Of a DNA stretch of 64,000 nt, positions 60,901 to 64,000 are shown piece by piece (the stretch's first letter is position 1; each line of letters opens with the position of its first letter). The position numbers and the translations under genes were made by a program. Below the pieces are notes generated by a model. It was not told where the DNA came from. It searched no databases and was given only the letters and a program-made list of their open reading frames with translations. The DNA is from an uncultured Bacteroidales bacterium (GTDB lineage: Bacteria > Bacteroidota > Bacteroidia > Bacteroidales > Paludibacteraceae): positions 62,001 through 126,000 of the forward strand of contig CASDOZ010000001.1 in the NCBI GenBank assembly GCA_949282265.1. Reading direction: 5' to 3'.

Positions 60901-61022
60901 AATTCCAAAATAATACCTAAAAACCATGCGAAGATACATATTTTTATCCAAAAACGGCACGTATTGCCACCAAAAACAGCATAAGCGTTTACAAAAAGCA
61001 AAGTTATTTCAAAATTATCATG

Positions 61023-61030
61023 TATTTTTG
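61023..61030 (+). promoter_or_regulatory. Promoter -7 element of the cysteine peptidase gene
   Basis: TATTTTTG, about 28 nt before ATG 61059; no -33 at the ideal distance. Confidence 0.45.
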
Positions 61031-61058
61031 CAGGCAGAAATCCCTAATTAACATCATC

Positions 61059-62249
61059 ATGACGAAAAAAATAATGTTGCTCGCCGCTTTTATGCCGTTT
61101 ATGCTGTGGGCAAAGAAGCCTCAGAAAGAGGCTGACAAAACGGACGGATTCCAGTTTACCACCATCGTGGAAAATCCGATAACCAGCATCAAGAACCAGA
61201 ACCGCAGCAGCACCTGCTGGAGCTTTTCCGGCTTGGCGTTGTTCGAGGCGGAATTGCTTCGCACGGGCAAGGGCGAATATGACCTTTCGGAAATGTTCGT
61301 CGTGCACCACACCATGCTCGACCGCGCCGAACGCTATGTGCGGCTGCACGGCGATGCATCGTTTTCGCCCGGCGGCAGTTTCTACGATGTGGCCTATTGC
61401 TGGAAAAACTACGGCATTGTGCCCCAACAAGCCATGCCCGGCATCATGTACGGCGACAGCCTGCACGTGCACAACGAGCTGGATGCCGTAGCAGGAGCCT
61501 ATACGAATGCCATCGCAAAAGGCAACCTGAAAAGCTTGACCCCTGTATGGCAGAAAGGCCTGGGAGCCATCTACGACACGTACCTCGGCGAATGTCCCGA
61601 AACATTCCAGTATGAAGGGCAGAGCTATACGCCGCAGACTTTTGCCGAACATTTGGGACTGGACATGGACGATTACGTGTCCATCACTTCCTATACGCAC
61701 CATCCGTTCTACACCTCGTTTGCACTCGAAATACAGGATAACTGGCGCATGGGCGAATCGTACAACCTGCCACTAGAGGAAATGATGGAAGTTATCCGCA
61801 ATGCGGTTGAAAACGGTTTTACCGTAGCATGGGGCTCTGATGTAAGCGAAACCGGATTTACGCGGCAAGGCATAGCCGTCATGCCCGATGCCGCCCAAGA
61901 ACAGGAACTGAAAGGTTCGGACATGGCACGCTGGCTCGGGCTCAGCAAGGAAGACCGCCAAAAGGAACTGACCTCCAAACCGCGGCCGGAAGTGCAGGTT
62001 ACGCAGGAAATGCGCCAGACCGCATTCGACAACTGGGAAACAACCGACGACCACGGCATGCTTATCTACGGCATAGCACAAGACCAGAACGGCAAGAAAT
62101 ATTTCATGGTCAAGAACTCGTGGGGCACGGACAATACCTACAAAGGGACTTGGTACGCCTCCGAAGCATTCGTGGCTTACAAAACCATGAACATTTTAGT
62201 GCACAAGGATGCCATTCCGGAACATATCGCGCAGAAATTAGTGAAATAA
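61059..62249 (+). CDS. C1-family cysteine peptidase (bleomycin hydrolase / aminopeptidase C-like), exported
   Basis: 396 residues from ATG 61059, where a signal peptide begins (IMLLAAFMPFMLWA); the longer frame crosses the -7 element. Catalytic Cys53 is in NQNRSSTCWSFSG, the His in TTDDHGMLIYG and the Asn in MVKNSWG, the C1B order. Family members trim peptides from the N-terminus. The signal peptide suggests a periplasmic or surface role in peptide use, unlike cytoplasmic PepC. It is followed by a strong terminator, then the 42-bp repeat array. Confidence 0.92.
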   Translation: MTKKIMLLAAFMPFMLWAKKPQKEADKTDGFQFTTIVENPITSIKNQNRSSTCWSFSGLALFEAELLRTGKGEYDLSEMFVVHHTMLDRAERYVRLHGDASFSPGGSFYDVAYCWKNYGIVPQQAMPGIMYGDSLHVHNELDAVAGAYTNAIAKGNLKSLTPVWQKGLGAIYDTYLGECPETFQYEGQSYTPQTFAEHLGLDMDDYVSITSYTHHPFYTSFALEIQDNWRMGESYNLPLEEMMEVIRNAVENGFTVAWGSDVSETGFTRQGIAVMPDAAQEQELKGSDMARWLGLSKEDRQKELTSKPRPEVQVTQEMRQTAFDNWETTDDHGMLIYGIAQDQNGKKYFMVKNSWGTDNTYKGTWYASEAFVAYKTMNILVHKDAIPEHIAQKLVK

Positions 62250-62311: not shown

Positions 62312-62394
62312 GTTTGACGGCACAACAGCACGACGATGTCGGGAATGATAATGCTGTGGCGTTGGAACACAAACCGCGCATAATGCCACACAGG

Positions 62395-62416
62395 ATTCCG
62401 GCTCGGAGGCCGGAAT
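62395..62416. repeat. REP-like palindrome just before the repeat array
   Basis: ATTCCGGC-TCGGAG-GCCGGAAT, perfect 8-bp stem with 6-nt loop. It resembles the extragenic palindromes with ATTCCGGC arms that are scattered in many genomes. It overlaps the only candidate ATG of the array frame. Confidence 0.65.
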
Positions 62417-63014
62417 GACATGCCAAGAAGCGGTTATCAAAACGCACAACGGTGCTTCAGCACGGACATTTGATGCAAGGCAGGCAAACCCATACACCAG
62501 CAACCAAAATCAGGTAGCGAGGCCATCGTATACATACAACAGCGACCAAAACCACGTAGCGAGGCCGTCGTATCCATACAACGACAGCCAAAATCAGGTA
62601 GCGAAGCCGTCGTATGCATACACCAGCGACCAAAACCGCGTAGCGAGGCCGTCGTATGCATACACCAGCAACCAAAATCAGGTAGCGAGGCCATCGTATA
62701 CATACAACAGCGACCAAAACCACGTAGCGGAGCCGTCGTATGCATACAACAGCAACCAAAACCGCGTAGCGAGGCCGTCGTATACATACAACAGCGACCT
62801 AAATCACGTAGCGAAGCCGTCGTATGCATACAACAGCAACCAAAACCACGTAGCGAGGCCGTCGTATGCATACAACAGCGACCAAAATCAAGTAGCGGAG
62901 CCGTCGTATACATACAACAGCGACCAAAACCACGTAGCGAGGCCGGAATATCCATACGACGCTAACCAAAATCAAGTAGCGAAACAGGCAAATGGCATGG
63001 AAGGGCTGGTGTAA
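62415..63014 (+). CDS. Doubtful open frame encoding 14-residue repeats
   Basis: 199 codons from ATG 62415. After 28 non-repeated residues come 12 copies of a 14-residue unit of the type QN(Q/H/R)VA(R/K/E)PSY(T/A/P)YN, then a short tail ending NGMEGLV. No signal peptide, no promoter and no Shine-Dalgarno; the ATG lies within the REP-like hairpin and a stop codon lies 66 bases upstream. Two minus-strand frames are also open across the array, which is automatic for a stop-free unit of 42 bp. In favour of coding: all unit lengths are exact multiples of three, and most changes alter residues at only four or five positions. I regard coding as unproven. Confidence 0.35.
   Translation: MTCQEAVIKTHNGASARTFDARQANPYTSNQNQVARPSYTYNSDQNHVARPSYPYNDSQNQVAKPSYAYTSDQNRVARPSYAYTSNQNQVARPSYTYNSDQNHVAEPSYAYNSNQNRVARPSYTYNSDLNHVAKPSYAYNSNQNHVARPSYAYNSDQNQVAEPSYTYNSDQNHVARPEYPYDANQNQVAKQANGMEGLV
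62497..62995. repeat. Tandem array of twelve 42-bp units
   Basis: The word GTAGCG occurs at 62514, 62556, 62598, 62640, 62682, 62724, 62766, 62808, 62850, 62892, 62934 and 62976: twelve times, spaced exactly 42 bases with no indel. Units 1 and 5 are identical, so part of the array grew by duplication of a four-unit (168-bp) block. Many copies carry the palindrome GTATGCATAC, changed to GTATACATAC or GTATCCATAC in others. Variation is confined to a few sites. No spacers exist, so this is not CRISPR. Confidence 0.95.
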
Positions 63015-63088: not shown

Positions 63089-64000
63089 TTACTTCGTAAT
63101 CTTCAAAACAGCATTGGCGGAGCGAACCAGATAAATGCCGTGAGGCATGGCGCTCATGTCAATATCACCAGCAGCAGTCTTCACGCAAACGCCGCTAACC
63201 GTGTAAACGGACAATTCCAGACCGGCAGCATTGCGGATTACCTGGCCATCGAACGAAACACCTTCCAAGGTTGCAGGATGGCAAAGACCAGTACCACTAC
63301 CTTTCGAAGTCGTAACATCAATAATATTCGATGCTTCCGAGTCGGTATAGCTTTCGGCTTTGGCAACTACACTGTAATGGTAAGTAGTTTCAGCTGTCAA
63401 ACCGGTAATAGCCTTGCTGGTTTCGGTAACAGTGAATGGAGAACCGGTGATAGGAGTTTGAACTTGTATTGTACTTGTATTTGTTTGGGTTACCGTTATA
63501 TCGTCCAAATAACCATTTGAATTGTTGTAAACACGAATTTCCAAATTTAATGCCGTAGCTCCAGCAGGAACTGTTGTACTGATAGTAGCTTCCGTCCATG
63601 CTCCTTTTACATTTGAATATTCTTGCACCTGAAGAGATGTGTCATCACTCCCTTCCCAGGTACACCATAAACGAAGACCATTACCTGTCATTGTTGGATC
63701 AAGGTAATACCAATAAGAAACAGTAATAGTTTCTCCGGGAGTTACATTATTAATGGTTTGGCGTAAATCTTTGGTTTTACTAGCACTAAAATACAGCGAT
63801 TGTGTGCCTGTATGTGCATTATCTGTACTCAATGAATAAGCATCCTCCGCAACCCAATTTTCAAGTCCGTTTTCAAAGCTGGAATTGGCAACACCAAATT
63901 CCACTGACTCTTCTGTCCAAACATTTAATTCATAGCTTGTCGCATTATCAACGGCAGCCCAATTGGCAACAAAACTATTCGGAGTGATACTTGTTGCTTC
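63089..64000 (-). CDS. T9SS cargo protein with carbohydrate-binding-like and FN3 domains (N-terminus off the right edge)
   Basis: The frame is open to the right edge, giving 303 residues; a GTG at 63904 is internal, not a start. In reading order: an FN3-like part (TPNSFVANWAAVDNATSYEL), a carbohydrate-binding-like jelly roll (ANSSFENGLENWVAEDAYS, QTINNVTPGETITVSYWYYL), an FN3 repeat (ITGLTAETTYHYSVVAKAES), and a type A T9SS sorting domain with ELSVYTVSGVCVKTA and MPHGIYLVRSANAVLKITK. A catalytic domain may lie outside the window. The sorting domain directs it across the outer membrane and resembles that of the pectate lyase. Confidence 0.88.
   Translation of the reverse strand, partial: EATSITPNSFVANWAAVDNATSYELNVWTEESVEFGVANSSFENGLENWVAEDAYSLSTDNAHTGTQSLYFSASKTKDLRQTINNVTPGETITVSYWYYLDPTMTGNGLRLWCTWEGSDDTSLQVQEYSNVKGAWTEATISTTVPAGATALNLEIRVYNNSNGYLDDITVTQTNTSTIQVQTPITGSPFTVTETSKAITGLTAETTYHYSVVAKAESYTDSEASNIIDVTTSKGSGTGLCHPATLEGVSFDGQVIRNAAGLELSVYTVSGVCVKTAAGDIDMSAMPHGIYLVRSANAVLKITK

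Follow-up and report, generated by a model that had tools for sequence, protein, structure and literature searches.

A 42-bp tandem array in a Bacteroidales genome and its kinship with arrays upstream of DUF6261 genes

What is a tandem array with an exact 42-bp period doing between two convergent genes? The array lies near the end of the window, the whole stretch of 64,000 nucleotides from an uncultured member of the Paludibacteraceae that was analysed, and a preliminary description of it proposed a repeat protein, a minisatellite of variable copy number, or a DNA element for protein binding or chromosome structure. The reading preferred here, to which we give a probability of about 0.5, assigns it, as a remote (satellite) and untranslated member, to the 41–43-bp arrays found upstream of DUF6261 (PF19775) genes, and sees in it probably a binding platform whose sites are spaced by four helical turns.

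Layout and coding potential of the array

The period is 42 without indels, as the preliminary description had it; TRF gives 84% matches and 0% indels (score 660; the remaining two TRF rows in the window score 57 and 58). The 11.7 copies reported by TRF resolve, when units are laid out from GTAGCG to GTAGCG, into eleven full units with a partial one to their left and a degenerate one to their right. The identity of units 1 and 5 is confirmed. The central palindrome ascribed to many copies is exact (GTATGCATAC) in five of the eleven full units (3, 4, 6, 8 and 9), whilst elsewhere the centre is A or C, and in unit 11 an arm is also altered. The intergenic position and the neighbouring REP-like palindrome were both correctly seen (Table 1). 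An inverted repeat of 9 bp flanks the array, a length reached in 2% of 60 flank shuffles.

Table 1. Features in and around the array (positions within the window)
Feature	Position	Strand	Remarks
42-bp tandem array, family A	62491..62982	.	11.7 copies; TRF, unit layout
Eleven full 42-bp units	62514..62975	.	GTAGCG-anchored, no indel
Degenerate last unit	62976..63014	.	merges into right flank common to same-genus genome G001
Left arm of 9-bp inverted repeat around array	62493..62501	.	TACACCAGC
Right arm of 9-bp inverted repeat	63005..63013	.	GCTGGTGTA
~132-bp insertion relative to G001	62321..62452	.	contains REP-like palindrome; by-eye sequence comparison, ends +/- few bases
REP-like inverted repeat, ATTCCGG-8 nt-CCGGAAT	62395..62416	.	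~75 bp before array
199-aa open frame through array	62415..63014	+	judged non-gene
Neighbouring C1-family peptidase gene (Peptidase_C1_2)	61020..62249	+	stops before array
Neighbouring gene, truncated by window end	63089..64000	-	weak sub-cut-off MAM, type IX sorting and fn3 matches

The array is untranslated DNA and not a protein gene. At least three frames had been thought free of stops; over the array only one of the six is, three others having one stop each and the last two 6 and 13. Of 18 variant states in the frame without stops, 3 are synonymous, and this share of 0.17, set against 0.25 expected, gives no indication of the purifying selection on codons that a comparison between units had been proposed to reveal; the variable columns of the window units are also spread fairly evenly over the codon positions. 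Neither frame nor start codon is conserved in relatives. The related array on contig C18 of the window's own genome (G000) has four TAA stops in the corresponding frame, and the ATG of the 199-aa frame lies in the right arm of the REP-like palindrome, within the insertion missing from G001. With the 199-aa frame as query, nothing in Pfam or NCBIfam rose above a curated cut-off (best NF040939, E 0.00074, 19.5 bits vs 90), PHROGs gave no match, and the PDB one match at E 0.033 and none below E 0.03. A plus-strand protein built of 14-residue units could draw on the one array frame that stays open for 220 codons and on the array on C5 of G000, which is open in the corresponding frame. Against it stand the shortage of synonymous changes, the C18 stops, the position of the start codon and the 41-bp period of other arrays of the genus, which would shift the frame; the codon tests, the C18 stops and the start codon lead us to dismiss it as next to impossible.

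Structural features of the units were compared with shuffled sequence. Inverted repeats within units exceed mononucleotide shuffles over the set (Fisher p: leader units, n = 9, 2.5e-5; remote units, n = 11, 4.7e-6), the two sets sharing families A, B and E and five of the remote units coming from the second genus (G002, below). The window unit itself has no significant dyad or palindrome (p = 0.19) and no fold stability (z +0.31), and its predicted bend is borderline, being equalled in 5% of shuffles. No single structure proved common to the arrays: fold z-scores are strong in some units and absent in others, including that of the window; phased bending, predicted from wedge angles, shows no shared excess; and only 6 of 22 arrays, that of the window among them, have flank inverted repeats beyond the 5% level of shuffles, the other 16 having none beyond it.

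Relatives of the unit and other arrays of the same period

In G000 (2.47 Mb, 89% complete), the pattern GTAGCGNNGCCGTYGTANNCATAC has 26 matches with up to three mismatches, all within three arrays: that of the window and those at C5:151.7–152.0 kb and C18:25.4–25.7 kb. The further 42-bp arrays for which a genome search had been suggested thus exist, two with this family A unit and others with different units. The search of G001, of the same genus, found one family A unit only, at the locus orthologous to the window array, where the same flanks enclose a single unit as against ~12 copies in the window; the C18 ortholog is without an array. Since the flanks run on into the one-unit locus, the array grew or shrank in place, and the minisatellite proposal is right in that copy number varies across species. 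Between the same two genomes, the C5 leader of G000 (the region before a DUF6261 gene, see below) carries family A where the orthologous G001 leader carries family F; for family F the expectation was recorded before the search, which found it at two further places in G001 (C17 and C4) and nowhere in G000. Arrays turn over at the level of species. Elsewhere the collections searched gave isolated, chance-like sites at most: among 200 genomes of the family, with up to two mismatches, three were positive, the two besides G000 having one site each. A collection of genome contigs gave one match, in a Ktedonobacterales contig and taken as chance, and neither the viral contigs (unit pattern) nor the plasmids (unit DNA) gave any.

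The period also recurs with other units. A TRF census of the genus covered 454 kb of G000 and 428 kb of G001 plus further loci; it was uneven, with 5 of 20 first stretches reading as N and 8 of 20 second stretches nonexistent, and some stretches were chosen for their hits (C5:10001–30000, C5:140001–160000 and C18 in G000; C9 and three pieces in G001). Besides family A, it yielded families B and C (42 bp), D (42 bp, at orthologous sites in the two species), E (a mix of 41 and 42 bp) and F (41 bp), a 43-bp AT-rich array and arrays of 23 bp. The 380 kb sampled from G002, which represents a second genus, contain non-coding arrays with periods of 21, 41 and 42 bp and two with periods of 25–28 bp. 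G033 (440 kb sampled) had a 14-bp array only, and other genera mostly have different periods, including 22, 23, 32 and 33. On a hand-curated list for the two array-rich genera, 12 of 18 non-coding periods are 41–43 bp, that is, about four helical turns. The periods also cluster helically (R at 10.5 bp, p ~0.0002 in the two array-rich genera and 0.0007 in the others, with 18 arrays each), a test treated as supporting only, owing to the hand curation, one array from a targeted search (L190), and a mean distance of 1.7 bp between the other genera's periods and multiples of 10.5.

Ungapped comparison of the units (153 pairs) gives clear relatedness only within A, within B and within E, a relation of D to family H coming from the separate leader comparison described below; homology of A with B or C, and of E with F, is marginal among so many pairs and is not claimed. 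The 41–43-bp period thus persists while the unit sequence differs, which points to spacing as the property under constraint. A DNA element, the third option of the preliminary description, gains support in a form with fixed spacing from this recurrence with different units and from the link to DUF6261.

Two 42-bp arrays of unlike units, B then C, abut at L066:2243–2803, and in G001 the orthologous gap is occupied instead by REP-like repeats together with a 23-bp array. The 23-bp arrays (GGGTATCTGTTACCCTTGACGAC; L065:6063–6183, L048:1973–2057 and L129:13201–13360) occur in both species and contain a small inverted repeat. A B-like 42-bp unit in 2.2 copies (L122:8–98) is cut by the end of G001 contig C11, its locus unplaced; array-bearing contigs end in or near arrays in two further cases (G001 C13, G000 C11), so assemblies may lose arrays. 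The genome G019 has a 14-bp array of 39 copies (TGATGGTTGATGAT; L178:17040–17591) inside an open frame of 253 codons.

Arrays upstream of DUF6261 genes

The four genomes searched contain 24 DUF6261 matches (five in G000, three in G001, 11 in G002 and five in G034). The five of G000 lie on C5, C6 and C24 and none on C1, so the window array is not upstream of a DUF6261 gene. A common leader layout is found on C5, C6 and C11 of G000 (the last at a contig end) and C4 of G001: promoter-like sequence, a short ORF with poly-C, a conserved stretch around GTTAA-ATAATCA-TTA, a 41/42-bp array, and a start codon, in that order. The arrays in the leaders of G000 C5 and C6, G001 C4 and G000 C11 belong to families A, B, E and E, respectively; G001 C13 has the leader with family F, its contig ending before the gene. 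The genes that follow on C5, C4 and C6 are DUF6261 genes. On C11 the contig stops ~20 nt into a gene whose start resembles that on C4, and which, on the assumption that the two contigs join, is identified with the DUF6261 gene that stands at the beginning of C24. In five leaders (L071:11400–12090 and, in reverse complement, L008, L192, L130 and L191) the short ORF, which begins MKxNN, runs into a C tract of ~10–12 bases, a possible phase-variable slippery site ahead of the array.

The upstream regions of three further DUF6261 genes were then taken to test the link, a step fixed in advance but with no expected result written down. All had an array upstream: 42 bp x 6.1 at C5:225 kb of G000, 42 bp x 6.1 at C8:24 kb of G001 and 43 bp x 5.8 at C8:70 kb of G001. 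Arrays also precede DUF6261 genes in Prevotella nigrescens (NZ_CP082843.1, 41 bp x 3.6) and Parabacteroides distasonis (NZ_OY725748.1, 42 bp x 4.0), and searches with these two leader units found two places each in their own record. At four DUF6261 loci TRF found no 41–43-bp array: the gene at 613.6 kb in G002, that of P. distasonis NZ_OY725757.1 and those on two faecal scaffolds labelled as phage. After these misses a lag scan was adopted. For 15 DUF6261 genes, self-matches at lags of 15 to 80 were scored over 600 bp of upstream sequence, or 512 bp in one case. In all 15 regions the lag with the best self-match was 41, 42 or 43, with scores of 53–243 in 11 and 15–20 at the four loci missed by TRF. 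Amongst control starts of long ORFs (at least 250 aa, antisense frames included, without gene calling), 60 of 1,246 had a best lag of 41–43, and 10 of 1,246 had it at a score of at least 20, one of these being itself DUF6261; 18 of 2,977 random windows reached a score of 20 at lag 41–43, and 78 at any lag. With the 95th percentile of the control scores at 15 and the 99th at 48, the four low DUF6261 signals are weak.

Six of the 15 regions (L071, L008, L191, L192, L190 and L072) had been found via their arrays, so that the fairer test set is the nine found by gene. All nine have such a lag, five strongly (74–165), one at 20 and three at 15–17. The 15 regions are partly non-independent, L196 and L197 looking orthologous and likewise L198 and L072, and one rests on the assumed contig join; the examined set takes in 10 of the 24 matches in the four genomes. 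Within the regions examined, these results suggest that the DUF6261 family is linked to 41–43-bp upstream arrays. A literature search amongst open-licence papers on 42-bp repeats, helical spacing, Prevotella VNTRs, Bacteroidales direct repeats and DUF6261 found no report of this link, and the only paper matching 'DUF6261' concerned, in the part available, daptomycin in Streptococcus oralis. Relatives of DUF6261 were absent from the viral contigs searched; four DUF6261 proteins gave no match in PADLOC, and one of the four had a single weak PHROGs match, to a functionally uncharacterised family. As to the source of the window, DUF6261, the style of the promoters and the weak type IX sorting match next to the array would all suit Bacteroidales.

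The units of the remote arrays compared resemble those of leaders. The window unit matches that of the array before the DUF6261 gene at C5:152.3 kb of G000 at 37 of 42 positions, which makes this leader array the closest relative found. The C18 unit (family A) matches at 35/42, B at 36/42, D to the leader family H at 28/42 and E at 36/42; each of these five values was reached in 0 of 300 shuffles. Family C matches leader B weakly (21/42, 3% of shuffles). The window array thus shares with the proposed DUF6261-linked class its period, the presence of at least two copies and homology to a leader unit, and differs from it in not lying upstream of such a gene.

Three observations concern individual records. 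In P. nigrescens NZ_CP082843.1, the annotated DUF6261 start lies inside the 41-bp array (L199:2812–2950), and a start at 2950 (MANESKV) fits the family better. In G002, a cluster of irregular hairpins with GCGATGG arms lies upstream of a DUF6261 gene (L133:14400–14900), with a weak 41-bp lag. The two PLSDB records labelled as P. distasonis plasmids (L200 and L201; NZ_OY725748.1 and NZ_OY725757.1) carry housekeeping genes, mfd, era and der among them, and so look like pieces of chromosome.

A possible binding platform, its rivals and known repeat systems

The kept period, together with the excess of inverted repeats across the set, as would suit a dimer site, leads us to infer a phased putative binding platform, with a DUF6261 paralogue as possible ligand. 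As 42 is 4 x 10.5 bp, each unit would place a site, in many cases an inverted repeat, on the same side of the helix, and this phasing would let a protein bind cooperatively. The likeliest ligand would be the DUF6261 paralogue itself, which would control itself at its own array, with remote arrays such as that of the window serving as extra or titrating sites. Slippage or unequal exchange would make the arrays longer or shorter, and indels that put the units out of phase would be lost. Several findings sit poorly with this reading. The window's own unit has no significant dyad. The acidic character of seven of the eight DUF6261 proteins examined (pI 4.7–6.1; the eighth, of P. nigrescens, has 8.4 and a start that is probably mis-set) counts against DNA binding, and no DNA-binding family reached its cut-off with the proteins scanned, the one NCBIfam match so named being at E 0.047 and 14.3 bits vs 128. 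The 23-bp arrays of the genus do not fit exact helical phasing, and remote copies can also come from neutral copying. The wider proposal is of a cognate protein–DNA system in Bacteroidales made up of DUF6261 proteins and four-turn-spaced arrays. In it each paralogue would have its own array unit upstream of its gene, this unit would also be seeded at remote intergenic sites, and between species the unit would be exchanged in leader and remote arrays together. The proposal is tentative, and we would bet somewhat against it. If true, such a system could organise or regulate the chromosome, and the spacing, not the sequence, would be the conserved code. For DUF6261, which occurs in multiple copies and is of unknown function, a DNA array that accompanies the genes is a first handle on its role. 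The persistence of the period through replacement of the sequence also makes these arrays a clean test case for selection on helical phase among the intergenic repeats of bacteria.

The main rival is neutral dispersal: minisatellites without function that arise by duplication and reach other intergenic sites through template switching or conversion, their period being inherited or set by a mutational ruler. That whole units are shared between loci in the clearly matching families, that the two species differ freely at orthologous sites (one unit, no array, another array), and that the tested arrays do not all share any one fold, bend or terminal repeat are all as this would have it. It is nevertheless rather unlikely, since units without clear similarity still keep 41–43 bp and since lags of this size accompany a single gene family in Prevotella, in Parabacteroides and in the family to which the window belongs. 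Spread of gene and array, or of the array alone, as a mobile or selfish element in the manner of BrickBuilt and PgRS in Porphyromonas gingivalis is decidedly doubtful. The dispersed copies of one unit, the 9-bp inverted repeat around the window array and the 23- and 41-nt tandem repeats held by P. gingivalis MITEs, as described in the available part of PMC4596501, would suit it; the continuation of the flanks into the one-unit locus of G001 and the 16 of 22 arrays without flank inverted repeats beyond shuffles do not. Nor does the Y1 transposase domain PF01797, with 0 matches in G000 (at its 89% completeness) and G001, a result on which a REP/RAYT system was also rejected. Finally, hairpins of the array might act in transcripts on the stability or translation of a neighbouring gene. 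Five leaders of the genus, with the array after promoter-like sequence (judged by eye) and in a probable 5' UTR with poly-C, favour such an RNA-level role. It is very improbable given that elsewhere promoter-like sequence, again by eye, sits between array and DUF6261 gene, that the window array lies between convergent genes, and that the window unit has no fold signal and Rfam no match at gathering score.

Plasmid iterons and parS-like clusters are repeated sites with helical spacing near the gene for their binding protein, iterons measuring ~17–22 bp and being tied to Rep proteins. They would be a working analogue of the arrays here, with the difference that the DUF6261 proteins scanned match no Rep-type family. 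In P. gingivalis, tandem direct repeats of 41, 23 and 22 nt are described in the part of PMC4596501 available, the 41-nt ones in 464/PgRS and the 23-nt ones in BrickBuilt, both MITE-like. 464/PgRS, at ~10–20 copies per genome, resembles the present arrays in having tandem direct repeats of nearly equal period in a Bacteroidales genome, and differs in its IS5-like terminal inverted repeats and MITE structure, most of our arrays having no flank inverted repeat beyond shuffles; the two are set side by side by description, and that part of the paper does not mention DUF6261. The window array likewise consists of intergenic tandem direct repeats, but 12-bp IS5-type terminal inverted repeats are absent around it (the longest exact one is the 9-bp TACACCAGC, unlike those of the PgRS paper), no leader or tail of the MITE kind was seen, and G001 has no empty site but keeps one unit in place. 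BrickBuilt is similar in being intergenic, with imperfect repeats in variable copy number (same part of PMC4596501), and is defined by a leader, a tail and terminal repeats, none of which was seen here; its period is 23 rather than 42. The 23-bp arrays of the window's genus have the period of BrickBuilt, a likeness by period alone. Heptamer repeats are the subject of the available part of PMC4679880. REPs, in the excerpt of PMC3733652 available, are small (20–40 bp) palindromic repeats, whereas the present arrays are tandem with a fixed period; a REP-like palindrome nevertheless lies near the window array, and REP-like repeats were noticed by eye at L008 and L129 as well.
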